This document shows, piece by piece, positions 5,701-28,069 of a DNA stretch of 28,687 bases (position 1 is the first letter of the stretch; each line of letters starts with the position of its first letter). The notes under the pieces were generated by a model, which ran no database searches, had not been told where the DNA came from, and was given only the letters and a program-made list of their open reading frames with translations. The stretch lies in IMG/VR virus record IMGVR_UViG_3300005563_000087, positions 1-28,687 of that record. The stretch is one strand, 5' to 3'. This stretch comes from a virus. A program made the translations under genes and the position numbers.

Positions 5701-5806
5701 TCACCGATTGAATTTGTAGCGTCTTGCTGGGATGGCATCCAGCGAGATGGAGATCCTATTGCCCGTTACCTGAGCGCGTCAGGGGCTTGTATTCGTGGAG
5801 TAATCC
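5701..5806 (+). other. Noncoding gap with small imperfect hairpin
   Basis: A gap of 106 bases lies between portal and scaffold, unusual in this tightly packed operon. GCTGGGATGGCATCCAGC near 5724 can fold into a seven-pair stem with one bulge, but no T-run follows, so it is not a simple terminator. GGAG seven bases before 5807 serves the scaffold gene. It may hold a processing or weak promoter site; I see no clear one. Confidence 0.4.
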
Positions 5807-6706
5807 ATGGCGATTGAAGTGATAGACCAGAGTGAACTTGCCAATTCGTATTTGAAAGAGAAGGCGGCTGTTGAGCCTGTGCCGATCGTTGGATCGGGAG
5901 AGGATAAGATTGAGGCAGCGCCTAAAGATCCAGAAGTCGATGCTGAAGGCAAGCGCGAGCGAAAGCAGCCGAAGCCGGTTCAACCTCGTATTGATGAACT
6001 CACCCGAAAGGCCAAGGAATCGGATGAGTTTGCTCAGAACGAATACAACCTGCGATTAGCCGCCGAGAAGCGCGCACGTGATCTCGAAGAGCAATTAGCG
6101 CGGGCCAAACCCGTGGAAGCTCCGAAAGAAGACGCGGAACCCAAGCCTGAAGACTTCGAAGATGCGATCAAATACGCAAAGGCACTGACCACCTGGACTG
6201 TCAAACAGGAACGCAAAGCTTGGGAAGCTGAGCAAGCGCAGATTCGATCGAGAGAGGCAGAAAACACACGCGCTCGTGAGTTTCGAGCAGCAGTTGAAAA
6301 ACTAGCTGAAGAGATTCCAGATGCTATCGAGGTGTTAGAAGCCGCCGAATTTCCGGCAGCAGGTCATATTTTGACCGCCATCTCGGAATCAGATCAAAGC
6401 GCACGCTTGGCATATCACTTTGCGACGCATCCTGAAGAGCTTGAGAAGCTAAACAAGCTCTCGCCGATCAAGGCCATTGCGGCCATCGGCAAATTAGAGA
6501 CTCAACTGGAAAAAAAAACCGAAGTGAAGGCGGAAACGCCCGAGCCCAAGGTAAATGGCTCCATTGAGCGCTCCAAAGCCCCAGAACCCATCACCCCGCT
6601 AAGAAATGCCTCCTCTCCCATCGAGAAAGATCCAGGACAACGGACTTTCGAAGAGGAGAAAGCCATCTATTTGGCCGAGCAGGCGCGCAAGCGGGGAGTT
6701 CACTAA
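5807..6706 (+). CDS. Scaffolding protein, P22 gp8-like
   Basis: A 299-aa, very charged protein between portal and coat, with the size and composition of podoviral scaffolding proteins (P22 gp8 is 303 aa). It has low-complexity Pro/Glu/Lys stretches at about 35-60. Long helices follow: LRLAAEKRARDLEEQLARAK near 83-102, then a stretch with KQERKAWEAEQAQIR and EFRAAVEKLAEEI. The last residues, AIYLAEQARKRGVH, are a basic helix like the coat-binding end of P22 scaffold. It would line the procapsid interior and leave before or during packaging. GGAG lies seven bases before the ATG. A run of nine A at 6510-6518 lies in frame near codon 235. Confidence 0.85.
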   Translation: MAIEVIDQSELANSYLKEKAAVEPVPIVGSGEDKIEAAPKDPEVDAEGKRERKQPKPVQPRIDELTRKAKESDEFAQNEYNLRLAAEKRARDLEEQLARAKPVEAPKEDAEPKPEDFEDAIKYAKALTTWTVKQERKAWEAEQAQIRSREAENTRAREFRAAVEKLAEEIPDAIEVLEAAEFPAAGHILTAISESDQSARLAYHFATHPEELEKLNKLSPIKAIAAIGKLETQLEKKTEVKAETPEPKVNGSIERSKAPEPITPLRNASSPIEKDPGQRTFEEEKAIYLAEQARKRGVH

Positions 6707-6728
6707 CACGCATTAGGAATCTCTCACC

Positions 6729-8039
6729 ATGGCTAATACTTTACTGACCACAAGTCAAATTACGAACCGGCACCTTATGGTGCTGCAGAACAAGCTCACA
6801 ACTGCAGGCCAAGTCACGCGCGAATACGACGATCGTTTCGCGGTGGCTGGCGCCAAAATTGGCGCAACCGTCAATGTGCGCAAACCGCCTCGTTATATCG
6901 GTACGACGGGACCTGCGCTGAACGTTGAAGACACGAATGAGACCTTCATTCCTGTCACGCTTACCACGCAGTTCCACGTCGATACGCAGTTCACGACTCA
7001 GGATCTGACGTTGAGCATCGATGAATATCAAGACCGCATCATCATGCCCGCGGAAGCCACTGTTGCGAATAAGATCGATCGCGATGGGCAGGTTACGCTG
7101 TATCAGAATATTGCGAATGCAATTGGCGTTCCTGGTAATGCGCCAACCTCAGCCCTCTCCTTTCTCCAGGCGGGTGCAGTACTCGATAGCGAAGCGGCCC
7201 CGCGTGATGGTCAGCGAGCGATTCTGTTGGACCCCTGGACACAAGCTTCGATGGCGGATGCACTCAAGGGCCTCTTCAATCCACAAGCAGCGGTCGCTGG
7301 CATGTTCCAGAGCGGACTGCTGGGTAAAAATACCCTCGGCCTCGATTGGTATATGGACCAGAACGTGGTCGCTTATACCGTGGGCGCTCAGGGCGGCTCG
7401 CCACAATCAGCATCGGCATCGCCAACACCTGGTCTGGCCTCTGGCTGGGCTTCGCACTATGTGCTGAATACCAAGGGCTGGTCTAACGGCGTCAATGCAT
7501 TGAACGTGGGTGATGTGTTCACCATTGCTGGCGTGTATGCGGTTAACCCGCAAAATCGCGGCGTATGGGGCTCGAATCGTCTGCGTCAGTTCGTTGTATT
7601 GCCGTCCAACGGCGCAACCGCTGCGCAATCGACGACCTATCAGGGCTTGGGTTCGCCTGGCACCTTCACTTCAGGTGCTGGCTTGCTCTCGGTCGATATC
7701 TTCCCGGCGCCGATCTACGGCGGACAGTTCCAGAACGTGTTCGTTGCGGGTGGCGCAGGTATCACAGCCTCCGCAAACATCACCGTGGTCGGTACTGCAG
7801 GCGCTGTGAGTCCGCAGAATATTGTGCTGCATAAGAACAGCTTCACCCTCGCGATGGCTGACTTGTTGATGCCTACGGGCGTGGATATGGCAGCACGTGC
7901 AACCGACAAAAACGGCGGCATGACGATGCGCTTTGTTCGGCAGTACACCATCAACAACGATGCGCTTCCTGCACGTGTCGATGTTCTGTATGGCTGGGCC
8001 CCCCTCTACCCCGAGCTCGCCTGCCGAGTCATGGGCTAA
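6729..8039 (+). CDS. Major capsid (coat) protein, P22 coat-like fold
   Basis: The 436-aa product directly follows the scaffold and is the size of P22 gp5 (430 aa). The N-terminal region, TTSQITNRHLMVLQNKLT and VNVRKPPRYI, is followed by a TTQFHVDTQFTTQDLTLS strand-rich E-loop region and an IDEYQDRIIMPAEATVANKI spine helix. The C-terminus, KNSFTLAMADLLMPTG then MRFVRQYTINNDALP and VLYGWAPLYPELACRV, is the conserved end of the P22 coat/HK97-fold branch. An inserted beta-rich segment at about 245-355 (VGDVFTIAGVYAVNPQN) may correspond to the extra domain of P22 coat. AGGAAT precedes the ATG. It forms the icosahedral shell with the scaffold above. Confidence 0.92.
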   Translation: MANTLLTTSQITNRHLMVLQNKLTTAGQVTREYDDRFAVAGAKIGATVNVRKPPRYIGTTGPALNVEDTNETFIPVTLTTQFHVDTQFTTQDLTLSIDEYQDRIIMPAEATVANKIDRDGQVTLYQNIANAIGVPGNAPTSALSFLQAGAVLDSEAAPRDGQRAILLDPWTQASMADALKGLFNPQAAVAGMFQSGLLGKNTLGLDWYMDQNVVAYTVGAQGGSPQSASASPTPGLASGWASHYVLNTKGWSNGVNALNVGDVFTIAGVYAVNPQNRGVWGSNRLRQFVVLPSNGATAAQSTTYQGLGSPGTFTSGAGLLSVDIFPAPIYGGQFQNVFVAGGAGITASANITVVGTAGAVSPQNIVLHKNSFTLAMADLLMPTGVDMAARATDKNGGMTMRFVRQYTINNDALPARVDVLYGWAPLYPELACRVMG

Positions 8040-9168: not shown

Positions 9169-9478
9169 GTTTATCGCGTGGCTCAAGTCATTTTGGACTC
9201 GAGCTGAATTCGCCGCTTCTGCAGTCGTTAATCGACCATTGGGTCATCAGACTTTTGTGGTGATCTTGGTCGATGGCCGTGTGGGCGTTTTGGATCATCA
9301 AAAAAGCGATGGCAAGTTTGGCGTTCGTCCGCTTGATGTGAATGGCAACTACATGCCAAATACGAGCACTCATTGGCCGATGGCTGATCGTATTCGCATT
9401 CCCGAGGAATTGGCCTTATCTCCTGATGAGTTCAGACCAGCATTACCAACTGAGATCCCGGCCAGTCTCAGAAGCTAA
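9161..9478 (+). CDS. Unknown structural-operon protein (105 aa)
   Basis: The protein starts with an aromatic/basic helix (MYKFIAWLKSFWTR), has a beta-rich middle (QTFVVILVDGRVGVLDHQK) and a Pro-rich tail (PEELALSPDEFRPALP). It overlaps its upstream neighbour by eight bases and its downstream neighbour by one (TAATG), so it belongs to the operon. I do not recognise a family; the gene order suggests a minor virion or assembly component. Confidence 0.6.
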   Translation: MYKFIAWLKSFWTRAEFAASAVVNRPLGHQTFVVILVDGRVGVLDHQKSDGKFGVRPLDVNGNYMPNTSTHWPMADRIRIPEELALSPDEFRPALPTEIPASLRS

Positions 9479-10560
9479 TGTCAAACATTACGCTTAATGC
9501 CGGTACGGGTGGCGCAACCCTCGGCACTGACACTGTAACGGCGGTCGATTATCAGATCGTCAAGATTGGATTTTCGGTCGCAGGTGCCGCACCTGTTCAG
9601 GTATCAGCATCGAATGCACTACCGGTTGTGCAGACGGGCGCATTGCCTGCGGGTGCCAATGTTATTGGTGGTGTCACGCAGTCAGGGACTTGGGCGGTTA
9701 CGGCCAACATCGGAACAACAGGTACGCTTGCGCTCGATGCGAGTGTCACCGGGCTACAGGTCGCGCAGGGCTCTACGACATCCGGCCAGAAGGGTGGATT
9801 GGCGCTGGGGGCGGTTACCACAGCTGCGCCAACCTATACGACGGCACAAAGTAATCCGCTGTCGCTCACGACGGCTGGCGCGCTGCGAATCGATGGCTCT
9901 GCAGTCACGCAGCCTGTTAGCGGCACGTTCTGGCAGGCGACACAGCCTGTTTCAGGCACGGTAGCTGCAACGCAGTCCGGCGCTTGGTCGCTCTCAGCGA
10001 ATCAATCAGTCAATGTGGCGCAGCTCGCGGGAACGACGACCGACACTAACTCTGGAAACAAGTCTGCAGGCACGCTCAGGGTCGTGCTCGCGACCGATCA
10101 GCCGACCATGTCGAATGGTCAGCCAGCGATTCAGTCTGGCACATGGACGGTACAACCAGGCAATACAGCGAATACGACGCCATGGCTCGTGACTGATACG
10201 CCTGGAACTTCAGGAGGTCTTTCCTTCAGCTATGTGCTTTCGGCGGCAAGTAACAACAAGACGCAGGCCAAGGGCAGCGCTGGTCAATTGTTTACGGTGG
10301 TGGTCACCAACACGAACGCTGCTGCGAGATATCTGAAGATTTTCAATAACACTTCTGCGGGCGTGACGATGGGCACGACCAACGCAGATTTTCAGTTTGT
10401 CATTCCCGGAAATACAGCCGGTGCCGGCATCGCGATCAATATCGATAAGGGGATTGCAATGGGAACCGGCATCACCTATGCAATTACGGCGGGTGTTGCG
10501 CTCAATGACAACACTTCAGTTGCGGCAAACGAAGTCAGTGCGCTGCTAGGTTACAAGTGA
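9478..10560 (+). CDS. Repeat-rich virion protein with C-terminal beta domain
   Basis: The 360-aa product is low in charge and rich in Thr, Ser, Gly and Ala. It has short recurring units such as VTQPVSGTFWQ, ATQPVSGTV, VTQSGTWAV and IQSGTWTV at about 65-230, typical of elongated phage fibre or shaft segments. Residues 250-360 form a separate domain with TNTNAAARYLKIF and VTMGTTNADFQFVI. The same domain makes up all of the 112-aa protein at 14952-15290. The gene starts in a TAATG overlap and ends in a GTGA overlap. It probably forms a virion-surface fibre or spacer; whether it is on the head or the tail is not clear. Confidence 0.65.
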   Translation: MSNITLNAGTGGATLGTDTVTAVDYQIVKIGFSVAGAAPVQVSASNALPVVQTGALPAGANVIGGVTQSGTWAVTANIGTTGTLALDASVTGLQVAQGSTTSGQKGGLALGAVTTAAPTYTTAQSNPLSLTTAGALRIDGSAVTQPVSGTFWQATQPVSGTVAATQSGAWSLSANQSVNVAQLAGTTTDTNSGNKSAGTLRVVLATDQPTMSNGQPAIQSGTWTVQPGNTANTTPWLVTDTPGTSGGLSFSYVLSAASNNKTQAKGSAGQLFTVVVTNTNAAARYLKIFNNTSAGVTMGTTNADFQFVIPGNTAGAGIAINIDKGIAMGTGITYAITAGVALNDNTSVAANEVSALLGYK

Positions 10561-11922: not shown

Positions 11923-12890
11923 CCACAGCTCTTGACATCATTACCAGTGCATTAAAGCGTATCAACTCGTATGCACCTGGTGAGCCGCTTGCCGCTGTCG
12001 ATGCTCAGGATGCACTTGATACGCTTAATGACCTGCTTGAAACCTGGTCGAACGAACACCTGACTGTCTATAACAATAACGAATATGTGCTGCCATTCGT
12101 GGCGGGACAATACCAGTACACCGTTGGAAACTACGTAGGCGGCACGTTTACGGGAACGCTGGCAAGTGGTTCTCCAACCATCTCTGGCGTCACTGTTCCA
12201 TCAGGGGTCGTGCCAAGCGCTACCGCATCGCTTGCAAGCGATGTAACGGCAGCGGCTGGTGTGCCTGCGGGTACTACGATTATTGCAGTGAATTCAGGCG
12301 CCGGCACGGTCACGATGTCGGCAAATGCGTCCGTGACGGTCGCCACTCCGCAGCAGTTCACTTATACGATTCCAGGTAATTTCAAGATTCCACGGCCTTT
12401 GCGTATCACGAATGCGTTCACACGCATTACGACGGGTGGAACTGGCCTTGACTATCCCATGGAGGAGATCAGCAACGACGAATATACGGCGATTGGCTTT
12501 AAGAGCGTCGCAGGGCCATGGCCAACTTGCTTTTATCTCAATGCTGATTTTCCTTTAGCATCGCTCTATTTCTTTCCTAATCCTAGTCAGGCCGGATCGT
12601 TGCACTTATGGTGTGACGATATCTTCTCAAGCTTTGCAACCACTAATACGGCGGTCAGTTTGCCGCAGGGCTATGTACGAGCTCTCAAATGGAATCTCGC
12701 GCTCGAGCTAGCCCCTGAATACAACAGGCCCATTACTCCAGCACTTTCGATGGCTGCCAAGGAAAGCAAGGCGGCGCTTAAGGCATTGAATGCTGTGCCG
12801 ACACCGCAAGCTGCCTTTGATACGCCACGCGGTCGATTCAATGATGCGGGCTGGATTATGCATGGAGGCTTTACAACCAGTGGGCGCTGA
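11919..12890 (+). CDS. Tail accessory / head completion protein, P22 gp4-like
   Basis: The ATG at 11919 is in the ATGA overlap and gives the conserved start TALDIITSALKRINSYAPGE. It is followed by DALDTLNDLLETWSNE, the helical N-terminal signature of the gp4-type tail accessory family. A frame open further upstream (to 11784) is not needed. The body (FKIPRPLRITNAFTRI, EEISNDEYTAIG, YLNADFPLASLYFFPNP, GYVRALKWNLALELAPEYN) is typical. Residues 73-150 are an extra Gly/Thr/Ala beta module (SGSPTISGVTVPSGVVPS, AGTTIIAVNSGAGTVTMS) inserted between the helical part and the rest. Copies assemble under the portal and close the head. The family match is good; the insert is unusual. Confidence 0.82.
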   Translation: MTTALDIITSALKRINSYAPGEPLAAVDAQDALDTLNDLLETWSNEHLTVYNNNEYVLPFVAGQYQYTVGNYVGGTFTGTLASGSPTISGVTVPSGVVPSATASLASDVTAAAGVPAGTTIIAVNSGAGTVTMSANASVTVATPQQFTYTIPGNFKIPRPLRITNAFTRITTGGTGLDYPMEEISNDEYTAIGFKSVAGPWPTCFYLNADFPLASLYFFPNPSQAGSLHLWCDDIFSSFATTNTAVSLPQGYVRALKWNLALELAPEYNRPITPALSMAAKESKAALKALNAVPTPQAAFDTPRGRFNDAGWIMHGGFTTSGR

Positions 12891-14613
12891 CTTTGGTTTT
12901 GTAGGGCAGGCGTATAGCGCGCCTGATATCTACCAAGACCGGCAAGTGTGCGTGAATTGGTATCCGGAAGTGTCACAGTCGCTCAATTCCAAGGGCGAAC
13001 CGCAGGGCGGTGGACCTACCTCGAAAGGCTCGGTGATTGCACTCTTAGGATGTCCTGGGCTATTTACAATCACTACGCTGCTTGCGAATGCGGAAGTGCG
13101 CGGTGCTTGGGTGCTGCCTGGAAATACTCAGGCGATTTTCGTGGCACAGAACAAGTGCTATGTGATGACGGTTACTGTACCTGCGACGCAGACCAGCATT
13201 CCGCAGTTCAGCGTCACGCAAGTGGGAACGCTGCTAACTAACAATGGACAGGTTTGCATTAGGGATAATGGTGCGGGCGGCTACGCCATCATTGTCGATG
13301 GACCCTACTGCTACTACTACCGCATCGCAGGCGCTGGAACCGTCACATATTCGGGCGGCGTCTCGAATACAAGCACCGCGATTACATTCCCGGCCCCGTT
13401 GCCTTCTGGGCTGATTATCTCGCCATCGGTAACATTGACCGATAGTTCGGGATTCATTCCCGGCGGCACGACGCTTACAGCGATCAACTTCAATACCCCG
13501 GGCGCCACGATGTCGGCGGCAGCTACGGGTACGAATGCGAATGACCAGATCACTCTCAATATTCCGCAATTCGGGCAGATCACTGACCCGGGATTCTTAG
13601 GCGCTAACAAGATCGCTTTCATAGATGGTTGGCTGATCTTCAACAAGCCGAATTCACAGACGTTTTATACGTCTACAAATTATGGGATCTGCTTCAATCC
13701 CACGTTCTTTGCGCTCAATGATGGTTCAAGTGACAACTTGATAACGTTGATTGAGAGTAAGCGTGAACTGTGGCTAGTGAGTGAGCGCACTGCTCAGCCA
13801 TGGTATGACGCTGGCGGGACCTTATTTCCGTTCTCGCGTATCGATGGTGCGACGATCCAAGTGGGATGCTCGGCAATCCATACGATCGCGCGCATGGATG
13901 ACGATCTGATCTGGCTGGGCTTCTCGGAGCGCGGTCAGAACGTGATTATTAAGACAAAGGGATATCAGTACGAGACTATTTCCACGCGTGCGATCGAGCA
14001 TGCAATTTCGCAATACCCGCAAGTCTCGGATGCTTTTGCATACACCTATCAGGAAGAGGGTCACGGCTTCTATGTGATTACCTTCCCAACGGCAGATGTC
14101 ACGTGGGTGTATGACGGCTCGACAAAGATGTGGCATCAGCGGCTGTCGTACGATCCCGTGGGTGGCATATATCATCGCCATCGTAGCAATTGCTACGTGA
14201 ACTTCGCCAATGTGCGAATTGTCGGTGATTATCAAAACGGCAATGTCTATGTAATGTCCCGCAACTACTACACAGATGCGGGTCAGCCATTGATTGCGAG
14301 GCGCGTCACGCCCTATGTGTGGGATGGTGGAGCACGCGAACGCATCTCGCACCATTTTTTGCAGATTGAATTTTCCCCTGGTGTTGGCCTTTCATCAGGC
14401 AATGTTCAGGACGTAGATCCATACATCATGCTGTCGTGGATCGATGAGGAAGGGCAAAGCAATCAGCACCAGGTTCCGATTGGCAAGATTGGCCAGGCTC
14501 GTAACCGAGCAATCAAGCGGCGCCTAGGAAAAGCCCGAGCGCGTGCTTATGACGTGAGTATCTCGGCTGCCGTAAATAGAGATGTGGTGGGCGCCACGCT
14601 GGACGCATCATGA
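12862..14613 (+). CDS. Tail hub / DNA-stabilisation protein, P22 gp10-like
   Basis: I use ATG 12862 (583 aa); GTG 12880, 11 bases after GGAGG, is an alternative. It overlaps the gp4-like gene. The N-terminus FVGQAYSAPDIYQDRQVCVNWYPE is typical of gp10-like packaged-DNA stabilisation proteins. The centre (FFALNDGSSDNLITLIESKRELWLVSERTAQPWYDAGG, DDDLIWLGFSERGQNVI) has the repeated blades of this beta-propeller-like family. The C-terminus is basic (NRAIKRRLGKARARAYDVSI). Residues 163-233 form an inserted module (PLPSGLIISPSVTLTDSSG, GGTTLTAINFNTPGATMSA) that matches the one in the gp4-like protein. It would bind below gp4 and plug the channel. Confidence 0.82.
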   Translation: MEALQPVGADFGFVGQAYSAPDIYQDRQVCVNWYPEVSQSLNSKGEPQGGGPTSKGSVIALLGCPGLFTITTLLANAEVRGAWVLPGNTQAIFVAQNKCYVMTVTVPATQTSIPQFSVTQVGTLLTNNGQVCIRDNGAGGYAIIVDGPYCYYYRIAGAGTVTYSGGVSNTSTAITFPAPLPSGLIISPSVTLTDSSGFIPGGTTLTAINFNTPGATMSAAATGTNANDQITLNIPQFGQITDPGFLGANKIAFIDGWLIFNKPNSQTFYTSTNYGICFNPTFFALNDGSSDNLITLIESKRELWLVSERTAQPWYDAGGTLFPFSRIDGATIQVGCSAIHTIARMDDDLIWLGFSERGQNVIIKTKGYQYETISTRAIEHAISQYPQVSDAFAYTYQEEGHGFYVITFPTADVTWVYDGSTKMWHQRLSYDPVGGIYHRHRSNCYVNFANVRIVGDYQNGNVYVMSRNYYTDAGQPLIARRVTPYVWDGGARERISHHFLQIEFSPGVGLSSGNVQDVDPYIMLSWIDEEGQSNQHQVPIGKIGQARNRAIKRRLGKARARAYDVSISAAVNRDVVGATLDAS

Positions 14614-14951: not shown

Positions 14952-15290
14952 ATGGCTTCCAAGAAATTTCACTTTGTATCAGCGGCGAATACAACTCCGG
15001 TGCAGATCTGTTCTGCAAGCGGCGTTACCATCACCGGTTGGAACCTAAACAACGTCAATGCTGCAGCTCGCTATGTAAAGCTGTATGACTCAGATATTGC
15101 GCCAACGGTTGGAACGACTGTCCCGACTCTCACTATTGTCATTCTCGCAACCAATGGCAAGGAACAGGAATACGCAAGCGGCCCGAGCTTTTCGAAAGGA
15201 TTATGGATAGCTGTGACCAACCTGGCGGCAGATACCGACAACACCGCGCCCGGTGCTGGTGATGTCATTGCGAATATTTTCTTTGAATGA
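14952..15290 (+). CDS. Single beta-domain virion protein (112 aa)
   Basis: AGAGGAAC just before the ATG is a good ribosome binding site. The whole protein corresponds to the last 110 residues of the 360-aa virion protein at 9478-10560. Shared features are NAAARY (residues 36-41 here), the following strand ending in V-x-T or V-T-M with GTT, a central I-V-I or F-V-I strand, and a G-x-x-I/V near the end. It is thus a free copy of that domain, likely a small beta-sandwich. Its partners are unknown. It precedes the sulfotransferase/hydroxylase pair and overlaps it by four bases. Confidence 0.68.
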   Translation: MASKKFHFVSAANTTPVQICSASGVTITGWNLNNVNAAARYVKLYDSDIAPTVGTTVPTLTIVILATNGKEQEYASGPSFSKGLWIAVTNLAADTDNTAPGAGDVIANIFFE

Positions 15291-15802
15291 AGTTTTTCAT
15301 TTTCTCATTGCCGCGCTCAAGAAGCGCGTGGCTGTCTTTGTTTCTATCGAGTGCCGATAGCTTTTGTTTCCATGAACCGCTAGGGGATGAAGTAAGCCTC
15401 GTGGATCGTATGGCCGCGCGTCCCGAACCGGTCGTTGGCGCCATCGATACCGGTGCATATCGCAGCTATGAAGCGGTATTAGAAATGTTGCCGGATGCGC
15501 ACTATTTCATGCTGTATCGAGATCCTGTGGAGATTCAGCGCTCAAGTGACAAGTTCGGCGTAACGTTCGATGCGCGCAAGGAATACGAACGGCTATGCGA
15601 TATCCCTGTAGCTCACACGATCTATGCAAATGGATTAAACGATGTGGATTACCTAGAGTCTCTCTGGGTGGCAATCGTTGGAACTCCATTCGATAGAGAG
15701 CGAGCGGCACTTATGACAGAGATGCATATTGAGCGCGACGTATATAGATATTTCAGCAATCGTCCACATCTTCGGAATCCGCTAAGTGCAAGCTGGAATT
15801 GA
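15287..15802 (+). CDS. Short sulfotransferase-like protein
   Basis: The 171-aa product opens with FFIFSLPRSRSAWLSLFLS (residues 3-21), the 5'-phosphosulfate-binding loop of PAPS-dependent sulfotransferases (typically LPRSGSTWL). YRDPVEIQRSSDKFG at 77-91 matches the 3'-phosphate-binding motif (R-D-P-x-x-x-x-x-S). HEP at 29-31 fits the usual segment after the first helix. It is much shorter than bacterial sulfotransferases (about 250-300 aa), so the acceptor-binding part is minimal or the protein acts with a partner. It starts in an ATGA overlap and overlaps the hydroxylase-like gene by 17 bases. The substrate could be a virion protein or a host surface glycan; neither is shown. Activity is inferred from the two motifs. 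Confidence 0.75.
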   Translation: MKFFIFSLPRSRSAWLSLFLSSADSFCFHEPLGDEVSLVDRMAARPEPVVGAIDTGAYRSYEAVLEMLPDAHYFMLYRDPVEIQRSSDKFGVTFDARKEYERLCDIPVAHTIYANGLNDVDYLESLWVAIVGTPFDRERAALMTEMHIERDVYRYFSNRPHLRNPLSASWN

Positions 15803-16340
15803 GCTTCTGCCCTATCGGTTCGATGTCGAGCCACTAAAAATGGAACTTGATGCTCATCCTGAATTGTGGGATGACTTTGACTTGCGGACGAATCACCCGC
15901 AATCACCGCATCGTGAACTCTCGGATATCTTTGTCCGCTACAACGCTCGCGAGAACTACGCTGGGGATCGGCACGCATTCAACGACGAGCACACGCCTGT
16001 ATGGTGGACATCGGCTGAAGTTTTGCCGAGTGCAAAGCGCATTGCGCTTGAGCTTCAGGAGAAGATCGGCGGAGCGCTCGGAATGGTATTAATCACCAAA
16101 ATCCCAGCGCATACGAAGTGCTATGAGCATATTGATATCGGCTGGCACGCGCGCACCTATCAGAAGTATGCGGTGCAGATTACAGCGGCACAGAAGCAAG
16201 CGTTTCATGTCGAGGGCATTGCTTTATCGGCGCGTCCTGGCTCTGTGTATTGGTTCGATAATTCCAGATTGCATTGGGTCATCAATGATTCGGACGAGGA
16301 TCGCATGACACTTATTATTTGCATTGCAGGAGAGCAGTAA
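15786..16340 (+). CDS. Aspartyl/asparaginyl beta-hydroxylase-like 2-oxoglutarate dioxygenase
   Basis: The 184-aa protein has the layout of the Asp/Asn beta-hydroxylase (Asp_Arg_Hydrox) branch of cupin-fold iron dioxygenases. H115-x-D117 lies in CYEHIDIGWHA, and a second His (H163) in SRLHWVINDSDEDR is followed by R173, a likely 2-oxoglutarate anchor. GSVYWFDN at 152-159 matches the strand before the distal His. The start is GTG 15786, inside the sulfotransferase-like gene; no better start is available. The product probably uses Fe(II), oxygen and 2-oxoglutarate. The target is unknown; coupling to the sulfotransferase-like gene and position among tail genes suggest a shared target made late in infection. 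The stop overlaps the next ATG (TAATG). Confidence 0.78.
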   Translation: MQAGIELLPYRFDVEPLKMELDAHPELWDDFDLRTNHPQSPHRELSDIFVRYNARENYAGDRHAFNDEHTPVWWTSAEVLPSAKRIALELQEKIGGALGMVLITKIPAHTKCYEHIDIGWHARTYQKYAVQITAAQKQAFHVEGIALSARPGSVYWFDNSRLHWVINDSDEDRMTLIICIAGEQ

Positions 16341-17401
16341 TGCCAGTGGGCTGGGTTGCGGCTGGTGCGGCAGTACTAGGTGCAGGCGCATCCATCTATT
16401 CATCTAATCAGGCTGCCAATGCTCAAGAAGGAGCTGCCAATCGGGCTAGCAATACGCAACAGGGAATGTTCAATTACTCTGCCGCGTTACAGCGACCTTT
16501 CGTGGTTCAGGGACAAGCCGCAAGCTCTGCGCTCTCACAATTGCTTGGACTTGGTAATCCCCAGGATTCTGCGCAGAACGCGCAGGTGAATGATTTGTTC
16601 ACTGGCGTCAATGGCGTTCCGACAATGAATCCATCGCTGTATAACAGCGACCCAGCATACAAATATGCATGGGATACAGTGCTGGCGCGGCATCAGCAGC
16701 AGTTCGGGACGGGTTACACATCCCGTTCAGATCCGTCATCGCTTGCCACTCAGCTTGAGCAAGCGATGTCTCAGTACCATCAACAAAACCCAACTTCTAG
16801 TGGTGGTAATACAAATTCCGGCTGGACAATGAGTCCAGATGGAACGATGCATCAAATGCTCACGGCTGGTGGACCAAGCGCCCCATCCGGTACGCCTGGC
16901 GGCGTTTCTGGAACTGGACTCCCAGCCGGTTACTTGACCCAATTATTCGGACCTCAGCAGTTTCTTCAGAACGTAGATCCCGGTTATGGATTCAGATTGC
17001 AGCAGGGTAATACGGCACTCACAAATAGCGCTGCGGCCTCGACCGGCTCGATGTCGGGCGCAGCCATCAAGTCGCTGCTTGGCTACAACCAGGACTATGC
17101 ATCTGGTGAATACAACAACGCGTTCAATCGCTTTGAAACGCAGCAAGGCAATATCTTCCAGCGGCTCTCTGACATCGCCAATCGCGGCCAGAATGCAGCG
17201 GCTGGCGTAGGTCAGCAGGCGGTGAATACTGGCGCGAATATCGGTGCCAACATCGTTGGTGCCGGCAATGCACGCGCGGGTGCTGATGTAGCGACTGGAA
17301 ATGCAATAGGTCAGTTGGGTAGCAATCTTGCGACTTACTCGTATCTGAATCAGATCATGAAACAGCCAACTTCTACAGTAGCTGCAACGGGTAATACCTA
17401 A
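16340..17401 (+). CDS. Ejection / internal virion protein 1 (membrane-interacting N-terminus)
   Basis: ATG 16340 follows AGGAG by seven bases and overlaps the previous stop (TAATG); an earlier in-frame start at 16319 has no support. The product is 353 aa. It begins VGWVAAGAAVLGAGASIYSS, a Gly/Ala-rich hydrophobic segment followed by an Ala/Gln/Asn-rich helix (NQAANAQEGAANRASNTQQG). This is the common start of phage DNA-ejection proteins. Gly/Gln/Ser-rich stretches fill the middle and Ala/Gly repeats (NTGANIGANIVGAGNARAG) the end. It lies first of three such genes in the order of P22 genes 7, 20 and 16, and is likely packaged and injected with the DNA. Confidence 0.75.
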   Translation: MPVGWVAAGAAVLGAGASIYSSNQAANAQEGAANRASNTQQGMFNYSAALQRPFVVQGQAASSALSQLLGLGNPQDSAQNAQVNDLFTGVNGVPTMNPSLYNSDPAYKYAWDTVLARHQQQFGTGYTSRSDPSSLATQLEQAMSQYHQQNPTSSGGNTNSGWTMSPDGTMHQMLTAGGPSAPSGTPGGVSGTGLPAGYLTQLFGPQQFLQNVDPGYGFRLQQGNTALTNSAAASTGSMSGAAIKSLLGYNQDYASGEYNNAFNRFETQQGNIFQRLSDIANRGQNAAAGVGQQAVNTGANIGANIVGAGNARAGADVATGNAIGQLGSNLATYSYLNQIMKQPTSTVAATGNT

Positions 17402-18894
17402 TGCCCATCGACGGCTCTATCCCGCTACAGGCGCATGCTCCGAGCGCTGGCGATACGCTGCAGAATATCTCTTCGCTCCTTGGCATTAAGCGGCAGCAGC
17501 AGGTATTGCAGACTGGACAGTATCAACAGCAAACCGAACAGGCTGGCGCTCAACAGGCACAGCAGGATATGCAGGAGCGAAATGCCGCAACCTCGATTCT
17601 TCAGAATCCTCAGCAATATGGGATCTTGGATGAAAACGGCGTCATTGATCCAGCGAAAGCCATTCCTCTAATCCAGAAGGCTGCACCCAAGACCAACGGT
17701 CTTTATGTTGCGCCTATTATGCAAGGATTTAAGGCGCAGCTTGAAGTAAGTAAGGCCGCGCAAGATCTAAACCGCTCTATGCGGGAGGATGCAAATTCAG
17801 CACTTTCATCGGTGGCAACAAACCAAAAAGCAACCTATGGAGATATCGTTGATGCTGCTGATTTGCTGAAAGAACAGAATCCAAAATCAGCGAAGTTCGT
17901 CGATGCGATGCTGTCGCATTTAAACCCGCAAGAGCCAATGGAGGTGACAAAGCAGAAGCTTATCAGCTTCGGTCGTGTCATTCTGCCGCCATCATCAACT
18001 GTTGGTCCGCAGGGGCTTGCCACGCCGCAAACTGCTAGCATCGACACTGGCGCTTCGATTCAACCTGGTGCGGTTCAGCCTCAAACCGGCGCATTTACTC
18101 CATCAGGATCGCCAATCAAGAAAGAATTGCCACCGCTTACGCCTGGCGTACTTACCGATGCAAATGGTCGCCAATTTAGGCTCGATCCAAACACCAATAC
18201 AGTGGCTCCGATCGGCGAGGGTACATCCCCTAAGCAAACGTCGACCGCGCCGCGCTTTGTGCAAAAGACTGCAGATCAAGAACAAGTCACACATAACATT
18301 GAGAGCGCTCGCCAGGCTGGCGATCAAGTTGGCCTAAACTCGCACATCAACGATCAGTTGTTGAAGCTCTCGAAAGATACGGCGACAGGTCCAGGCACTG
18401 AAACCTGGCACCACGTGATGGGCGCTTTGGGCGCGCCATTCGGCACGAACGCATCGTCTGACTATCAAACGATCGGCGCCTATCTCGATCGCCAAGCGGC
18501 GATCAATGCAACCGCGATGGGACTGCCGAATACCAACGCCGGCATGGCGAGCTCGCAGAGTCTCACCGGCAACACTGGGTACACGCCGAAAGCATTGCAG
18601 ACCAAGATCATATTGGGCGATGCATTAAATACGGCTGCTGGTCAGTTCCGTAAGGGACTGGATAGAGCTGTGGGCGTTGGTTCTAATCAAGATGCTAGCA
18701 AGTATCAAGCCTTCCGGAGCGCATGGGCTGAGAACTTCGACCCGCGTATTTTTATGGTGGAAAATGCGATTAAGCGCGGCGATACAGAGGAGCTTGCCAT
18801 ACTCAAGAAAGATATCGGACCGAAGGCGATGGCAGATCTCAAGAAAAAGAGCGCCAATTTGCGCAAGCTTGAGAATGGCGAGTTGCCAGAATGA
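17401..18894 (+). CDS. Ejection / internal virion protein 2
   Basis: A 497-aa protein starting in a TAATG overlap. The N-terminal part is a Gln-rich helix (LLGIKRQQQVLQTGQYQQQ, QAGAQQAQQDMQERNAA) likely to form a coiled coil. The middle, residues about 195-300, is Pro/Thr-rich and disordered (TPQTASIDTGASIQPG). The C-terminal part is helical (QTKIILGDALNTAAGQFRKG, DASKYQAFRSAWAENFDPRI, TEELAILKKDIGPKAM). Composition, length and order match P22 gp20-like ejection proteins, which pass into the host with the DNA. There is no lysozyme or peptidase motif that I can see. Confidence 0.72.
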   Translation: MPIDGSIPLQAHAPSAGDTLQNISSLLGIKRQQQVLQTGQYQQQTEQAGAQQAQQDMQERNAATSILQNPQQYGILDENGVIDPAKAIPLIQKAAPKTNGLYVAPIMQGFKAQLEVSKAAQDLNRSMREDANSALSSVATNQKATYGDIVDAADLLKEQNPKSAKFVDAMLSHLNPQEPMEVTKQKLISFGRVILPPSSTVGPQGLATPQTASIDTGASIQPGAVQPQTGAFTPSGSPIKKELPPLTPGVLTDANGRQFRLDPNTNTVAPIGEGTSPKQTSTAPRFVQKTADQEQVTHNIESARQAGDQVGLNSHINDQLLKLSKDTATGPGTETWHHVMGALGAPFGTNASSDYQTIGAYLDRQAAINATAMGLPNTNAGMASSQSLTGNTGYTPKALQTKIILGDALNTAAGQFRKGLDRAVGVGSNQDASKYQAFRSAWAENFDPRIFMVENAIKRGDTEELAILKKDIGPKAMADLKKKSANLRKLENGELPE

Positions 18895-20861
18895 GCGATC
18901 CCCGCGAGGACTTCTTCTCTACTGAAGAAGTTCCAGCATCTCGTGATGACTTCTTCGCCGCTCCTCCCGCTCCTGTTGTAGTGGCGAAAACGCTCCCGGA
19001 TGGCCGGCCGTCGACTGGATGGCCCGGTGAAGCTGAGATGGAGCGCACACGCAATCCCACTGATGATGACACACCGATCGGTGCGGCTATTGCGCATGTC
19101 GTCAAAGGCACTGCAGCCGGAATTGTGGGAGGCTATCGAGGACTATATGACCTAGCAACCGGCAAAGGCGCAGAACATGCGGCCAGTGATGTTGAGGCAA
19201 CGCATGATCGTATGGCCTATCGCCCGGCTGGCAGGGCGGCTGAGGTAACAACGAAGGTCCTCGATTCTCCATGGAACCCGCTCAACTGGCCGGATGTCGC
19301 CGGCCAGAAATTGGGCGATGCCTCGGAGAGGTTAGGATTGCCGCCGATTGTCTCAACCGCCGCTCGAGTCGCGCCCGATGCCATTGCGGCTTTCTACGGA
19401 ATGCGCCGCGGCAGTAAGGCCATGCAAGATGAGCCGGCAGCCCCAGTAGAAGAGCCTCTCTATGCTAAGCCTGGCGATGTTCCTGTGCCCGAGACGGCTG
19501 GAGCGCCCAATGCACCCTTCGCTGAACCTGCGATTGCCGAGGCCGGCAGCGCGCTTGATTCAGCCGAGCAATTACGGCGCACGCGTGTATTGCATGAAAT
19601 AGGACTTGATGAGCTTCCGCATAGACAGAGCGCTGTGACTGGTGATCCGCTCGCCGCGGCCACTGACTATGAGCTCACCAAGCTAGACACCGAGCCTGGC
19701 AGATTTGCAAAAGGACTGCTCGATAACGAACGCAATGCCTTGCGCAATTACGCAGCGCAGACCGTGGAGAAAACCGGCGGCATTGCCGGAGATACGCAAA
19801 GTGAAACCATTGCACGCGGTGAATCCGTCACGGGTGCCTTGGAGTCACTCTCGGAAAACTACAATAAGCGTATAGGTGATCTCTATAAGGCCGCAGATCA
19901 GCGCGCTCAGGGAGTTCCTACAGAGCTTAAAAGCTTCCAGGAAATACTCGGCGATGATTCCCTGATGACCAATCAGGACCGTTTAGGGCTACGTTCTGGT
20001 CTCAATGCCTACCTTAAGAAACTTAAGGTGGTTGATGAAAACGGTAATGTGACGGCAAGCATTCAGCAGGCCGAGACCATTCGAAAATATTTAAATGATG
20101 AGTGGTCGCCGCAGAACTCCAAGCTAGTCTCTAAGCTCAAGAATGCATTGGATGATGATGTCACCAAAGATGCGGGCTCTGATATCTATCAATCGGCGCG
20201 TCAGTTGCGTACTGAGCGCGGTGCCACTTTGGATAACCCCAAAGGGATTGCGAGACTCATCGATAGTAGCGGACCGAATGGCATCAATCGCACGGTATCA
20301 TCCGATAAGGTTATGCAAACGCTTGAGACCATGCCGCCAGAGCAACTTGAGCACGTCATGACAACCCTGCGCGGCGTAAAGGGAGAGCTTGAGCCACAAG
20401 CACAAGATGCGCTCTCTGCTATTCAGTCGCACTTTGCGCAACGTCTGCATAACATTGGCGAGAGCCAGCAGACGCAATGGAATAGCAAAGGTGTCAATCA
20501 GTTCCTAAAGGGCAACAGTGCCAGACTCAATGTTGTATTTGCAGATAAGCCGGAATTACTGAATCGGCTCTACACGCTAAATGAAGCTGGAAAATTGCTG
20601 CGCGTACCTGCTGGCTATCCTGGCGCATACGCACAAGCTATAAACCTGAGCAAAACTGGCGCAGTGCCTAGCTATCTGCATCGCGGAATTGCAATGGGTG
20701 GCAGCGCAGTAGGCGGTTGGCTTGGCGGTCCAGGAGGCGCATCGCTAGGAGCGGCGGCGGGAGATGTTGCCGGCGCTCGGATTGCAAAAGGAATGGCTAA
20801 TAAGGCCGCGATGAAAGCTGCTCAATCGCGCGCAGTCATGCCAGAAACGCCGCAGCCTTAA
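18891..20861 (+). CDS. Ejection / internal virion protein 3 (largest)
   Basis: A 656-aa protein, close to P22 gp16 (609 aa) in size and order, starting in an ATGA overlap. It opens with two copies of an acidic DDFF/EDFF element (REDFFSTEEV, RDDFFAAPP), common at the start of large internal virion proteins. A Gly/Ala region (AHVVKGTAAGIVGGYRGLYD) near 70-90 could insert in membranes. Long helical stretches follow. Residues near 605-640 are a Gly/Ala-rich tail (GIAMGGSAVGGWLGGPGG, ASLGAAAGDVAGARIAKG). It is expected to form part of the trans-envelope conduit. No catalytic motif is visible. Confidence 0.75.
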   Translation: MSDPREDFFSTEEVPASRDDFFAAPPAPVVVAKTLPDGRPSTGWPGEAEMERTRNPTDDDTPIGAAIAHVVKGTAAGIVGGYRGLYDLATGKGAEHAASDVEATHDRMAYRPAGRAAEVTTKVLDSPWNPLNWPDVAGQKLGDASERLGLPPIVSTAARVAPDAIAAFYGMRRGSKAMQDEPAAPVEEPLYAKPGDVPVPETAGAPNAPFAEPAIAEAGSALDSAEQLRRTRVLHEIGLDELPHRQSAVTGDPLAAATDYELTKLDTEPGRFAKGLLDNERNALRNYAAQTVEKTGGIAGDTQSETIARGESVTGALESLSENYNKRIGDLYKAADQRAQGVPTELKSFQEILGDDSLMTNQDRLGLRSGLNAYLKKLKVVDENGNVTASIQQAETIRKYLNDEWSPQNSKLVSKLKNALDDDVTKDAGSDIYQSARQLRTERGATLDNPKGIARLIDSSGPNGINRTVSSDKVMQTLETMPPEQLEHVMTTLRGVKGELEPQAQDALSAIQSHFAQRLHNIGESQQTQWNSKGVNQFLKGNSARLNVVFADKPELLNRLYTLNEAGKLLRVPAGYPGAYAQAINLSKTGAVPSYLHRGIAMGGSAVGGWLGGPGGASLGAAAGDVAGARIAKGMANKAAMKAAQSRAVMPETPQP

Positions 20862-20987: not shown

Positions 20988-21914
20988 ATGACCACTGAAA
21001 CGCTTGCACCACAACCAAAGTTACGCTTTACCGACAACAACAACAACCCGCTCGTGTCCGGCAAGCTTTTTACCTATCAGGCCGGGTCAACGACAAAGCT
21101 TACAACTTATACAGACTCAACAGGACTGACGCCAAATTCGAACCCAATCGTGTTGGATTATCGAGGCGAATGTAACTGCTGGATTCCGCCTAATACCGCC
21201 TACAAGTTCACGCTATCGCCTTCCACCGACACCGATCCACCGACCAATCCTATATGGACGGTTGACAATCTCGCAAGCTCGCAGCTTATCTCTCTATATG
21301 GTGGCGTCGATACTGGGATCGCTAATGCATATGTAATTACCTTTGCTGCCAACTTTTCTGCCTACACAGATGGAATAGTCATTATTTGGATTCCATCGCA
21401 TACAAATACAAGCGCCTCTACGATCAACGTCAATTCTCTTGGGGCTGTCAGTATTTTGAATGGCGACGGAAGTGCTCTAATTGCTAATGAATTGGTAGCG
21501 AATCAGCCAATACAGATGTTTTATAAAGCAGGTTTTTTCTATCTCCTGACTCCATCGATTACTAAGGGATCATTTGTTGCGACTTCATCTGATTTTACGG
21601 TTTCGGTGAACACCACTGTATTTTGGATTAAGGTTGGAAATATCGTCTTCATGACGGTCGCATTCTTCTCAGGGACGAGCAACAACATTTTCCTCAGTTT
21701 AGGCGGAATCCCTGCATATTTGTTGCCCTTGAGTACATCTGGGGTCATCAGTATTCCATGTCTCACTGATGGTGGGGCAAATCTGTTCTCTGGAGCTGGA
21801 GTACAGATTACGACAACAACAATATCGTTTACCAAGAACTGCAATCCAGGTGGATTCACAAACACTGGAACAAAAGGATTGCCGTTTACAATTTCGTTTT
21901 CATATTCGGTATGA
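20988..21914 (+). CDS. Short tail fibre protein (shares anchor and tip domain with next gene)
   Basis: The 308-aa product begins with a virion-anchor domain of about 190 residues: LRFTDNNNNPLVSGKLFTYQ, then NSNPIVLDYRGECNCWIPPN and [15 protein letters not shown]. The same features in the same order start the following 736-aa protein. The C-terminal 95 residues (FWIKVGNIVFMTVAF, SLGGIPAYLLPLS, GGFTNTGTKGLPFTISFSY) also match the end of that protein ([29 protein letters not shown]). There is no beta-helix between, so this is a fibre without depolymerase. Both would attach to the tail through the same anchor. The stop overlaps the next ATG (ATGA). Confidence 0.78.
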   Translation: MTTETLAPQPKLRFTDNNNNPLVSGKLFTYQAGSTTKLTTYTDSTGLTPNSNPIVLDYRGECNCWIPPNTAYKFTLSPSTDTDPPTNPIWTVDNLASSQLISLYGGVDTGIANAYVITFAANFSAYTDGIVIIWIPSHTNTSASTINVNSLGAVSILNGDGSALIANELVANQPIQMFYKAGFFYLLTPSITKGSFVATSSDFTVSVNTTVFWIKVGNIVFMTVAFFSGTSNNIFLSLGGIPAYLLPLSTSGVISIPCLTDGGANLFSGAGVQITTTTISFTKNCNPGGFTNTGTKGLPFTISFSYSV

Positions 21915-24121
21915 CGATCCTATCGCCGCTCCCTAAACTAGCCTTCCGAGACAACAACAACAACCCAGCCGTCGGCGCGCAACTCTTCACCTACCTATCA
22001 AACACAACGACAAAAGCGACGACCTACAAAGACTCATCTACCTCGAATCCGAACACCAATCCGATTCAACTCGACTATCGAGGCGAATGCGACTGCTGGT
22101 TGATACAGGGTCAGTCCTACACATTTACGCTCGCGCCTGCGAACGATACAGACCCGCCGACAAATCCGATATGGACCGTCAATAACATCAATCCGAGCGC
22201 GATTCTCGCATCCGCGAACTACGCGCCCGATACTGGATCGACGAATGCCTACGCGGTGCTGACCGCGATCTCTGTTCCTGCCTATGTCGATGGACTGCGT
22301 ATTTCGGTCAAGATCGCCAACACGAATACCGGCGCATCAACGCTTAACTACAACACACTAGGCATTAAGAACATCACCCTGCAGAACGGCGCTGCACTCT
22401 CTGGCGGGGAATTACAGGTGGGTGGCGTATATGACTTTGAGTATATCAATCCGAATTTCCAGCTACTGAGTCCTGCACTTCAGCCCACACAAATCAGGAC
22501 CGCCGCCGAGATCGCCGCGGGCGTCACGCCGACGAATTATTACTATCCTGAACTCAACCTGCTTCGCTACTGGAGCGGTAGTGGCAACATTGATACTGCG
22601 CTCTCGCAGATGCTGGACGTGCTCCTAAACAAGAGCGGCGGTGTTGCAACGATCCCGCCTGGTTCGTATTCGCTCGCGGCGACCGTTACCAAATCATTGA
22701 CCACGAGTCCGGGCGCAAATGTCACGACGCTGGGCGCTACGATCTGGGCATATGGTGCAAAGATCTCGTTTGCGGGTTCGGGGTGGGCCATTGAATTCAC
22801 GTCCCCCAATACCTCCTCCGCGTATTACGGACCGCTCCTCACGGTCTATGGGCTCAATATCTACGGCACCGCATCCGGAAGTGGTGGTGTTCGTTGTAGT
22901 GATACGAGCGTTGCCAGATTCATCAATTGCTTCGGGCATAGCTTCACGAGCGGCTCGGCCTTTGGCCTAAGAAATACGGTTTCGTGGTGCGAGAACAATC
23001 ATTTCATTGGCTGCGGCGCGGTGTCCTGCAAGAGCGGCATCAGCTTCACGACTTCAAGCGGTAATAGCTTTGCGCGCACGACAGTCCATGATTTCTACGG
23101 CGCGGGGATTACTGATTACTGGTTCGATGTGGGCGGGGGTTGCTCTGTCTATGACAGTCGCTTTACGCACATTAGCGGCAACAATGGCGCACTAGCAATC
23201 TTTGGACTAGGCGCTGCCGGGTCCGGTGCGGACATGACGGCGACGGTCGTCGATGGTATTAACTGCGAACTGAACTCACTCGTTACGCTCACCTTCACTG
23301 GCTCACTCTCCGGAGGCGCAACTTCTGCGACCTTAACGAGTGTTTGGACGCATCCGACCGGATCTTATACGGTTGCATTCAGTAATGGTGATAGCCGCGT
23401 AGTTACACTCACCAACAACGCAACGACCGCGACTTGGACAGGTGGACTCTCTGGGACCGCTACCTCATCCGCCACAGTACAACAAGGCATCATTCAACTG
23501 CGTGATTACCCACAGAATGCCGGGGTTGAGCGCCGTCCAATTCTCTATAACGTCAGTTCCCAATCAACCTTTACGGGATCAGGGAACATTCCAGTCTGGA
23601 TTAGCAATACAGGCGCAACACTGACGGGACCCGAGTCTGCGCAGCTTCAATCGCTGGCAGTGCAGGCGCCTGTTATCTCACAGGTGGGTCAAAGCCAATT
23701 CTTAGAGGCGAACTATGGTGCGGCTTCGGCACTGCGTAATGTCGCAACGCTCAACAGCGTATTGCAGGGCTCGATCAATATCACCGGTTGTACGGCGGGT
23801 GTTTCTGGTCGTGTGTCGTTCTTTAGAACCGGCAATCTAGCGGGAATGACGGTATTTGATCCGCTCACCGGAACATCGAATACCACAGCCATGACGATGA
23901 CGGGGATTCCGGCTGAATACACACCGACTGCAAATAGAACGGTGGTGTGCTATGTCACGAACAATGGCGCTGTAACGATGGCACTCGCGCAGATTGCATC
24001 CACAGGAACAATCACCTTTTTCTGCGGTACGGCAATCAATGCATTTTCCGCGACTGGCTTTACCAACGCTGGGACCAAGGGTCTGACTGTAGATACCACT
24101 ATTCTTTGGCCTCTCTCATGA
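21911..24121 (+). CDS. Tailspike with predicted beta-helix (possible glycan depolymerase)
   Basis: The 736-aa protein has an anchor (1-190: [53 protein letters not shown]). A linker follows, and from about 235 [20 protein letters not shown], the classic opening of a pectate-lyase-like right-handed beta-helix. Turn-rich Asn/Gly/Ser repeats with Cys/Ile/Phe stacks ([33 protein letters not shown]) run to about 450. A beta module ([19 protein letters not shown]) seen in many phage tailspikes comes next, and a C-terminal domain shared with the preceding fibre closes the protein. It likely trimerises and binds or cleaves host surface polysaccharide. Active-site residues cannot be assigned by eye. 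Confidence 0.82.
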
Positions 24122-27061: not shown

Positions 27062-27071
27062 TCTGTCTTAT
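27062..27071 (+). repeat. Direct repeat copy 2 (TCTGTCTTAT)
   Basis: Identical to bases 26915-26924. It overlaps the integrase stop codon and the right arm of the AGACAG-T-CTGTCT palindrome. Candidate arm-type site for integrase or its helper. Confidence 0.6.
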
Positions 27072-28069
27072 CCGCCTGTCGATTGTGCCACGGAAGGCAA
27101 AGATACACGCACTTCTTGAGTGACAATATAGCCCTGCGTCGTACGCGGATCGGTATGGGCCGCAATGCGCTGGGCAAGCTGAAGCCCATGCTTGCGCTCG
27201 ATGTCGGTGAGGCGCTTGCGGCGGATGTCATGCAGCGTTACGCCTTCCACGCCGGCCGCGGCACACGCCTGCTTGTACTTCCGCATTACTGTGCTGTAGT
27301 CGTATGGCTTGCCGTGGCGAGTGCTGAACACATGCAGTCCCACCACTCGACATCGCAAGTGCTTCAGGCCATCCAAAATAGCCTCCATCTCTTCGCCGCG
27401 GTCGAACACGAGTGCAGCCTTGGTCTTCTGGATTTGCACATGCACGCCATCCTCTTTCACGCACGACCAACGCAGTCCGATCAGGTCGGACTTGCGCAAC
27501 GCAGTCAGGTAGGCCATGCGTAAGAAATACTGCAGCCAGACGGGAGACTTCCCCAGGATGGCGGCCCATTCAGCATCGGTGATGTAGCGCTTGCGCTTAG
27601 CGCGCGGCCCTTTGTCCATGCCGTAGAGCGGATTAGGTCCCGGCATCCAGCCGATGCGAATGCCGTAGTTCAGGACATTCGAGAGTAGACCGACGAGTCG
27701 CTGCGCCGTGACGCGCTTCGGATGCTCGTCGAGCAATCGCGCCGCATGCTGGCCCTGCACTTGATGAGGCTTCATATGTCCAAAGCCTTTGATGAGCTGG
27801 CGCCCCCAAATTTCATAGTTCTTTTGCGTGGCCTTTGCACGCTCCTGCCTTTCGTCCGCCAAGAACTTCTTGATTAGCGCTTCGATGGTGCGGGGCGGTT
27901 CTGCCTTCTTCGCCTCGAGCTTTCCATACTCGACGATCGCATCGGCGTAGGTCTTGCCGATTGGAATGCGCTTTTGCTTTCCATCGACATACGGGCGCCA
28001 GTAGAACGTTCCATTATCGAGAGACATCCTGGGCGGGAGATGCTTGTGCTTACGCCGCAGACGACCCAT
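27068..28069 (-). CDS. int: Tyrosine recombinase, phage integrase
   Basis: The start is ATG 28069, with GGAG six bases upstream; a TTG four codons earlier is unlikely. The 333-aa protein has an N-terminal arm-binding part (TFYWRPYVDGKQKRIPIG), a SAM-like core-binding part (FLADERQERAKATQKNYEIW) and the catalytic domain. R192 in TALRKSDLIGLRW, K215 or K217 in QIQKTKA, H280-x-x-R283 in LHDIRRKR, H305 in AAHTDPRT and the nucleophile Y314 in TQGYIVT are all present, so it should be active. It would catalyse integration at attP/attB and excision with a directionality factor. It overlaps the DUF4224 gene by 20 bases. Confidence 0.94.
   Translation of the reverse strand: MGRLRRKHKHLPPRMSLDNGTFYWRPYVDGKQKRIPIGKTYADAIVEYGKLEAKKAEPPRTIEALIKKFLADERQERAKATQKNYEIWGRQLIKGFGHMKPHQVQGQHAARLLDEHPKRVTAQRLVGLLSNVLNYGIRIGWMPGPNPLYGMDKGPRAKRKRYITDAEWAAILGKSPVWLQYFLRMAYLTALRKSDLIGLRWSCVKEDGVHVQIQKTKAALVFDRGEEMEAILDGLKHLRCRVVGLHVFSTRHGKPYDYSTVMRKYKQACAAAGVEGVTLHDIRRKRLTDIERKHGLQLAQRIAAHTDPRTTQGYIVTQEVRVSLPSVAQSTGG

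Follow-up and report, generated by a model that had tools for sequence, protein, structure and literature searches.

The window analysed here is the whole 28,687-nt stretch of IMG/VR virus record IMGVR_UViG_3300005563_000087 (positions 1 to 28,687). Downstream of a gene for a head closure Hc3/tail protein and directly before a series of ejection-type genes, it carries two joined genes, one for a sulfotransferase-like protein (SUL) and one for an Asp_Arg_Hydrox-type oxygenase (HYD), whose coordinates and candidate active-site residues are collected in Table 1. Because the window also encodes a terminase, a portal, a major head protein and an integrase, it is probably a fragment of a temperate P22-like podovirus.

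Table 1. Genes and protein motifs at and around the SUL-HYD locus, in window positions
Feature	Position	Strand	Evidence or conservation
Head closure Hc3/tail protein, upstream edge of the slot	12790-14613	+	PHROG 578, E = 4e-88
112-aa protein, upstream neighbour	14952-15290	+	Not conserved adjoining the pair in other loci
SUL, sulfotransferase-like protein, 171 aa	15287-15802	+	Pfam, PHROG, AlphaFold, PDB fold matches
SUL 5′ phosphosulfate-binding-type loop, P9-R10-S11-R12-S13-A14-W15	15311-15331	+	R10 and W15 invariant in 47 homologues
SUL His29, candidate catalytic base (inferred)	15371-15373	+	Invariant in 47 homologues; in no recruitment pattern
SUL 3′-phosphate-type motif, R78-x7-S86	15518-15544	+	R78 in 26/30 and S86 in 24/30 HYD-paired homologues
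HYD, Asp_Arg_Hydrox-type Fe(II)/2-oxoglutarate oxygenase, 184 aa, GTG start	15786-16340	+	PF05118, AlphaFold, PDB folds
HYD Fe ligands, H115-x-D117	16128-16136	+	Invariant in 59 homologues
HYD Fe ligand, H163	16272-16274	+	≥90% of 59 homologues; 16/16 in smaller alignment
HYD R173, candidate 2-oxoglutarate-binding Arg	16302-16304	+	≥90% of 59 homologues; 16/16 in smaller alignment
gp7-like DNA ejection protein, conserved downstream neighbour	16340-17401	+	PHROG 598 "DNA ejection", E = 2.9e-21; cluster EJ7
Second ejection-type protein (P22 gp20 position)	17401-18894	+	Position; homology to cluster EJ20c
Third ejection-type protein (P22 gp16 position)	18891-20861	+	Position; 36% identity to L034 protein in the same place
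Tyrosine-recombinase-type integrase	27068-28081	-	PHROG 1

The two open reading frames and their junctions were exactly as the initial annotation had given them: the 112-aa reading frame overlaps SUL by 4 bases (ATGA, 15287-15290), SUL overlaps HYD by 17 bases (15786-15802), and HYD overlaps the gp7-like gene by 1 base (TAATG, position 16340). The GTG start of HYD was backed by the aligned N-termini of its homologues and by a similar 16-base overlap in contig L007 (7995-8010). Upstream of the pair the window encodes the head-closure Hc3 protein and two small proteins. No sigma-70-like promoter was found on the + strand between 14400 and 16700, in line with the earlier statement that the pair has no promoter of its own; the - strand held 1 site where chance predicts 2.6, and the pair region has two weak terminator-like sites, no more than chance would give. 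Since no promoter of its own was seen, late expression of the pair with the virion genes is expected.

SUL matched PHROG 10855 (E = 1.8e-10) and Pfam Sulfotransfer_3 at E = 2.2e-4 and 22.0 bits, below the curated cut-off of 27 bits. Among 47 SUL homologues, 14 matched Sulfotransfer_3 at E ≤ 0.01; save one stray match, Pfam matches across the members were to sulfotransferase families only. Searches of solved structures by sequence returned insignificant sulfotransferase matches for SUL and weak cupin matches for HYD, so the fold searches carry the weight for both proteins. An AlphaFold model of SUL made with the 47 homologues (pLDDT 91.6, pTM 0.85) had tyrosylprotein sulfotransferase 1 (TPST1) as its best Foldseek match in the PDB (E 1.2e-5; Z 11.9, rmsd 3.3, 150 residues aligned), and all 11 PDB matches with Foldseek E ≤ 0.001 were tyrosylprotein sulfotransferases (TPSTs). 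TPST topped both fold lists, with polyketide-pathway and bacterial sulfotransferases no more than 1 Z unit away and kinases (guanylate kinase, O-phosphoseryl-tRNA kinase) no more than about 1 Z unit behind.

Both PAPS-type motifs that the initial annotation gave this short protein are present, the 5′ loop (P9 to W15) and R78-x7-S86. The invariant His29 lies at roughly what we take to be, by sequence register and not by coordinates, the position of the TPST catalytic Glu. R78 and S86 are gone from one SUL clade, some of whose members pair with HYD. The first motif was partly a recruitment pattern in the scan with a seven-sequence alignment, while SULs found through HYD were not selected on the motif; that alignment was needed for the scan of IMG/VR contigs, in which a single SUL sequence gave no match. 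The structure-prediction check proposed with the initial annotation therefore did not refute it: the predicted fold of SUL is that of a sulfotransferase. As such, SUL would most likely use PAPS.

HYD scored 28.8 bits against PF05118 (Asp_Arg_Hydrox), above the cut-off of 22.6, and 58 of 59 HYD homologues matched this family at E ≤ 0.01. The AlphaFold model, made from an alignment of the 59 viral homologues, had a pLDDT of 96.6 and a pTM of 0.92 and gave a 2-oxoglutarate (2OG) hydroxylase fold. Its double-stranded beta-helix matched L-proline cis-4- and cis-3-hydroxylases, a nucleoside-antibiotic hydroxylase and AspH (Foldseek E down to 5e-9; Z 14-16, rmsd 2.4-3.1). The proline hydroxylases (Z 15-16) and the antibiotic-pathway hydroxylase are as close to HYD in fold as AspH (Z 14-15); AspH itself lacks the Asp ligand. 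The 2OG hydroxylase signature H-x-D...H reported earlier is intact as H115-x-D117...H163, together with R173, and all four residues are invariant in a 16-member HYD alignment. The lipid A hydroxylase LpxO was rejected as the identity of HYD, the NCBIfam equivalog model giving 14.2 bits vs a cut-off of 500.

The pair recurs. Among IMG/VR contigs, 484 HYD relatives were confirmed as candidates, and SUL directly adjoins HYD in 27 of the best 80 of these 484 loci. With all sources merged and duplicates removed, a SUL-like neighbour was present in at least 37 of 116 HYD loci, so the co-occurrence of the two genes in related phages, on which the original proposal depended, is found in many contigs. 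These locus counts are lower bounds from scans of at most the best 80 loci each, are partly biased by recruitment patterns that favour the HWVINDS and LG-LIT motifs, and come mostly from metagenomic contigs, which are not independent. The pairing, met with again in dozens of further contigs, is far above chance. Annotated phage records were matched by the window's SUL in 25 cases and by its HYD in 4, with none shared among the records examined. HYD loci were also found in bacterial genomes (Variovorax, Paraburkholderia, Cupriavidus, Lysobacter, Undibacterium and others), most of them with recognisable phage tail or ejection neighbours, and a prophage of cultured Lysobacter gilvus HX-5-24 (NZ_WOXT01000001.1, locus L311) carries a hydroxylase (4992-5537), a sulfotransferase-like (5747-6256) and a gp7-like gene (6270-6860) in that order.

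In nearly all loci HYD lies between tail or needle genes and a gp7-like gene. With one profile, a gp7-like ejection gene was detected no more than 2.6 kb downstream in 69 of 100 HYD loci, and most of the rest have other ejection-type clusters downstream. Flanks of 1 kb or more were available for 99 loci, and in 94 of these HYD had a recognisable partner: SUL in 31, a small cupin alone in 41, a cupin with a GNAT acetyltransferase in 1, a 68-aa protein in 19 and a GNAT alone in 2, leaving 5 with none. The corresponding figure for bacterial-genome HYD loci was 20 of 20 with one such partner. In none of the 99 loci were any two of SUL, the small cupin and the 68-aa protein combined; the chance probabilities of no co-occurrence for the three pairs are 2.7e-10, 3e-4 and 6e-6, values that are optimistic because related loci are not independent. 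Members of the slot itself served to build the slot GNAT profile, which does not detect the GNAT of L008. An HNH-like gene (cluster c25) is also inserted in the slot in some contigs, and the gene order is reversed in L062, L063, L065 and L311.

The ejection proteins beside the SUL, cupin and 68-aa variants are homologous (L006/L007, L043 and L047), so the partners change while the surroundings stay; and because the same ejection families occur with SUL, cupin or 68-aa protein, the choice of partner does not follow from the ejection protein. Since the HYD slot takes several alternative partners, the pair is not a fixed two-enzyme pathway; it is one configuration, in which the partner may be SUL, a cupin, the 68-aa protein or a GNAT. 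The slot is best read as a late modification cassette with interchangeable parts, in which one hydroxylase is joined by a single partner that varies.

Several features of the partners were noted in passing. The small cupin of about 120 aa (cluster 3; L009-L018, L061-L107) is the commonest HYD partner, and some of these cupins match PHROGs named "short tail fiber protein" or "tail fiber adhesin", which are probably misnomers. The 68-aa partner (L040:5536-5742 and 12 further contigs) has a conserved core, FDMYFASVxSMQFHPGAGTKEH, and gave no Pfam or PHROG match; at L302:4998-5729 HYD is apparently fused to it.

Trees were built on these short proteins, that of HYD being a quick one. In the HYD tree the SUL-paired rows account for about 10 label changes, at least 2 of them forced by well-supported branches; in the SUL tree the HYD-paired rows fall in several supported clades, with 6 changes, at least 5 of them forced. 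The window's HYD groups with those of L031, L006, L007 and L034 and is 64% identical to the nearest, L031. The SULs of L031 and L006, in contrast, belong to a different supported clade (100/99 vs 100/100) and are about 22% identical to the window's SUL. Judging from these sequences, the hydroxylase was apparently kept while a distant relative took the place of its sulfotransferase-like partner, which argues for a maintained joint function.

SUL also occurs without HYD. Among 80 SUL loci, 38 encode SUL-GNAT fusions of about 355 aa (for example L139:3678-4745, L169:727-1737 and L183:4992-6029, with 35 further contigs) and 12 have a separate adjacent GNAT; in most of these loci, too, an ejection-type gene follows directly. 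In Pseudomonas and Stenotrophomonas siphophages the relatives of SUL have no hydroxylase in their vicinity and are encoded in early or DNA-metabolism regions. In Pseudomonas phages phiH1, Ab18, Epa5, PAJD-1 and relatives the usual annotation of these proteins is hydrolase or nucleotide triphosphate hydrolase; our evidence favours a sulfotransferase-like fold.

Both protein families are already known. HYD resembles the cis-proline hydroxylase/AspH group (PF05118; PDB 1e5r, 4p7w and AspH 6yyu) over the whole fold and in H-x-D...H plus Arg, but differs from solved PF05118 members in its compact 184 aa, its identity of about 11-17% and its podovirus-type slot with a small partner. SUL likewise shares with tyrosylprotein sulfotransferases and Sulfotransfer_3 proteins (PDB 5wrj, 3ap3 and 8w5z) its best fold match and the order of the PAPS-type motifs, 5′ and then 3′, whereas it has only 171 aa vs 270-330 aa in these proteins, is 15-19% identical to them and scores below the Pfam cut-off. 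The same slot, directly before ejection-type genes, holds a single small enzyme, a GNAT, in Pseudomonas phage PfAn1 and Vibrio phage 1.209.O; the PfAn1 GNAT adjoins a hydroxylase of HYD's family. These two phages differ from the window in having acetyltransferase chemistry and no sulfotransferase-like partner.

Slot-like positions are also occupied by P22 gene 14 (DUF2824, PHROG 651), between the tail needle gene 26 and gene 7, and by T7 gene 13 (PF11090), between genes 12 and 14. Comparison of P22 gp14 and T7 gp13 with SUL, HYD and the slot GNATs by hhalign gave probabilities of about 3% or less, the P22 gp14 set being narrow (94-100% identical); a single weak bridge to P22 gp14 was the match of the L008 GNAT to PHROG 651 (E = 2.8e-4). 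Homology of the slot GNATs, P22 gp14 and T7 gp13 was accordingly set aside as unsupported by hhalign, and the parallel is positional only. Cyanophages encode 2OG-Fe(II) oxygenases and asparaginyl beta-hydroxylases (PMC3037559). These are phage-encoded 2OG oxygenases, as is HYD, but they are sporadic auxiliary genes of T4-like myoviruses, and the parts of PMC3037559 consulted report no sulfotransferase pairing or tie to ejection genes. Our literature search returned no work joining phage, virion proteins, post-translational modification, hydroxylation and sulfation, nor the phrase "phage-encoded sulfotransferase", both weak evidence of absence, and no described system with a sulfotransferase-like protein and a hydroxylase. 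Nor did that literature yield a description of a conserved cassette whose partners are exchanged, and by its measure the pair would be the first case of a sulfotransferase and a hydroxylase forming a system within a virion operon.

We tentatively propose that the locus is a late modification cassette in which HYD hydroxylates and SUL most likely sulfates, acting most likely on virion proteins and probably on ejection proteins. Its place in P22-like short-tailed phages is constant, after the tail genes and before the genes for ejection proteins. HYD would use Fe(II) and 2-oxoglutarate to hydroxylate a residue, probably in a protein, and SUL would transfer a group, most likely sulfate from PAPS, within the same process; in other phages the small cupin, the 68-aa protein or the GNAT stands in for SUL. 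Both window proteins would be translated together with the ejection proteins, and their targets, modified before packaging or in its course, would most likely be virion proteins, first of all the ejection proteins whose genes follow directly. An ejection protein is the preferred candidate substrate because of the near-invariant position before ejection genes, the shared operon and the GNAT transferases found in the same place. The closest folds include protein side-chain modifiers (TPST and AspH), with proline hydroxylases ranking equally. The initial annotation had suggested a modification pathway within the structural operon, acting on the fibre, ejection or 112-aa protein or on the host envelope: folds and co-occurrence uphold a cassette built into the operon, though not with a fixed pair of enzymes, and position favours the ejection proteins, the fibre and 112-aa genes not being conserved beside the pair.

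Short-tailed phages inject proteins that form a channel across the bacterial envelope, and to our knowledge little has been learnt of how the virion makes them ready. With a conserved enzyme slot directly before the ejection genes, it becomes a concrete and testable idea that ejection proteins, or the host at that stage, are covalently modified. A stricter two-step version, a protein modification not known from phages, in which HYD would place a hydroxyl on an ejection protein and SUL (elsewhere the GNAT) would cap it with sulfate (or acetyl), strikes us as quite unlikely; if true, it would mean a maturation needed for packaging of the ejection proteins or for formation of the DNA-delivery channel, and P22 gene 14 and T7 gene 13, in the same position, would meet the same need.

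The enzymes could instead modify the host (a lipid, a polysaccharide or a host protein of the infected cell or the lysogen), for example in a superinfection block or a pre-lysis change of the envelope. PF05118 also includes LpxO, glycans are common sulfotransferase substrates, the integrase makes the phage probably temperate, and several slot variants lie in prophages. We consider a host target unlikely in view of the very low score of the LpxO model on HYD, the late expression with virion genes expected when no separate promoter is seen, and a slot fixed beside the ejection genes and not in a separately controlled moron position. It also appears improbable that SUL is another member of a P-loop-like fold, such as a kinase or a nucleotide-binding adaptor, and that HYD alone does the chemistry: the significant Foldseek matches are exclusively to tyrosylprotein sulfotransferases, the Pfam matches across members are to sulfotransferase families with one stray aside, and the window protein keeps both PAPS-type motifs. 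Such an identity would fit the kinases close behind in the fold list, the siphophage relatives in DNA-metabolism regions with their NTP hydrolase annotations, the loss of R78 and S86 in one clade, and the cupin and 68-aa partners, which are unlike sulfotransferases and yet take the same place.

If the slot were an insertion hot spot for unrelated small genes, pairing would reflect recombination with no joint function, and the mosaic partners, the HNH-like c25 insertions and the four contigs with reversed order would be accounted for. However, only a handful of families enter the slot, a partner accompanies HYD in nearly every fully flanked locus, the three main partners are mutually exclusive, SULs of separate clades occur with HYD, and HYD and the 68-aa protein are apparently fused in one contig, all of which makes a hot spot very doubtful. 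The late cassette acting on virion proteins stays our preferred reading.

Other observations concern the rest of the window and related records. The 112-aa protein resembles the C-terminal part of a 360-aa protein encoded at 9478-10560 (33% identity over 85 residues, E = 2e-5), and the shared piece is perhaps a repeated virion-type domain. The tandem fibre-like genes at 20988-21914 and 21911-24121 resemble each other in their N-terminal domain (43% over 253 residues) and again in a piece at the C-terminus, which suggests a duplication with the middle exchanged. The window has a gene for a GroES-like (Cpn10) protein close to the terminase (1186-1587), and in related contigs another Cpn10 gene lies upstream of the HYD slot (L042:1390-1680). 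Limnohabitans phage DC33 (PQ492659.1, L002) is listed under Inoviridae, a label that looks wrong, the 39-kb record being podovirus-like with a hydroxylase and a GNAT.
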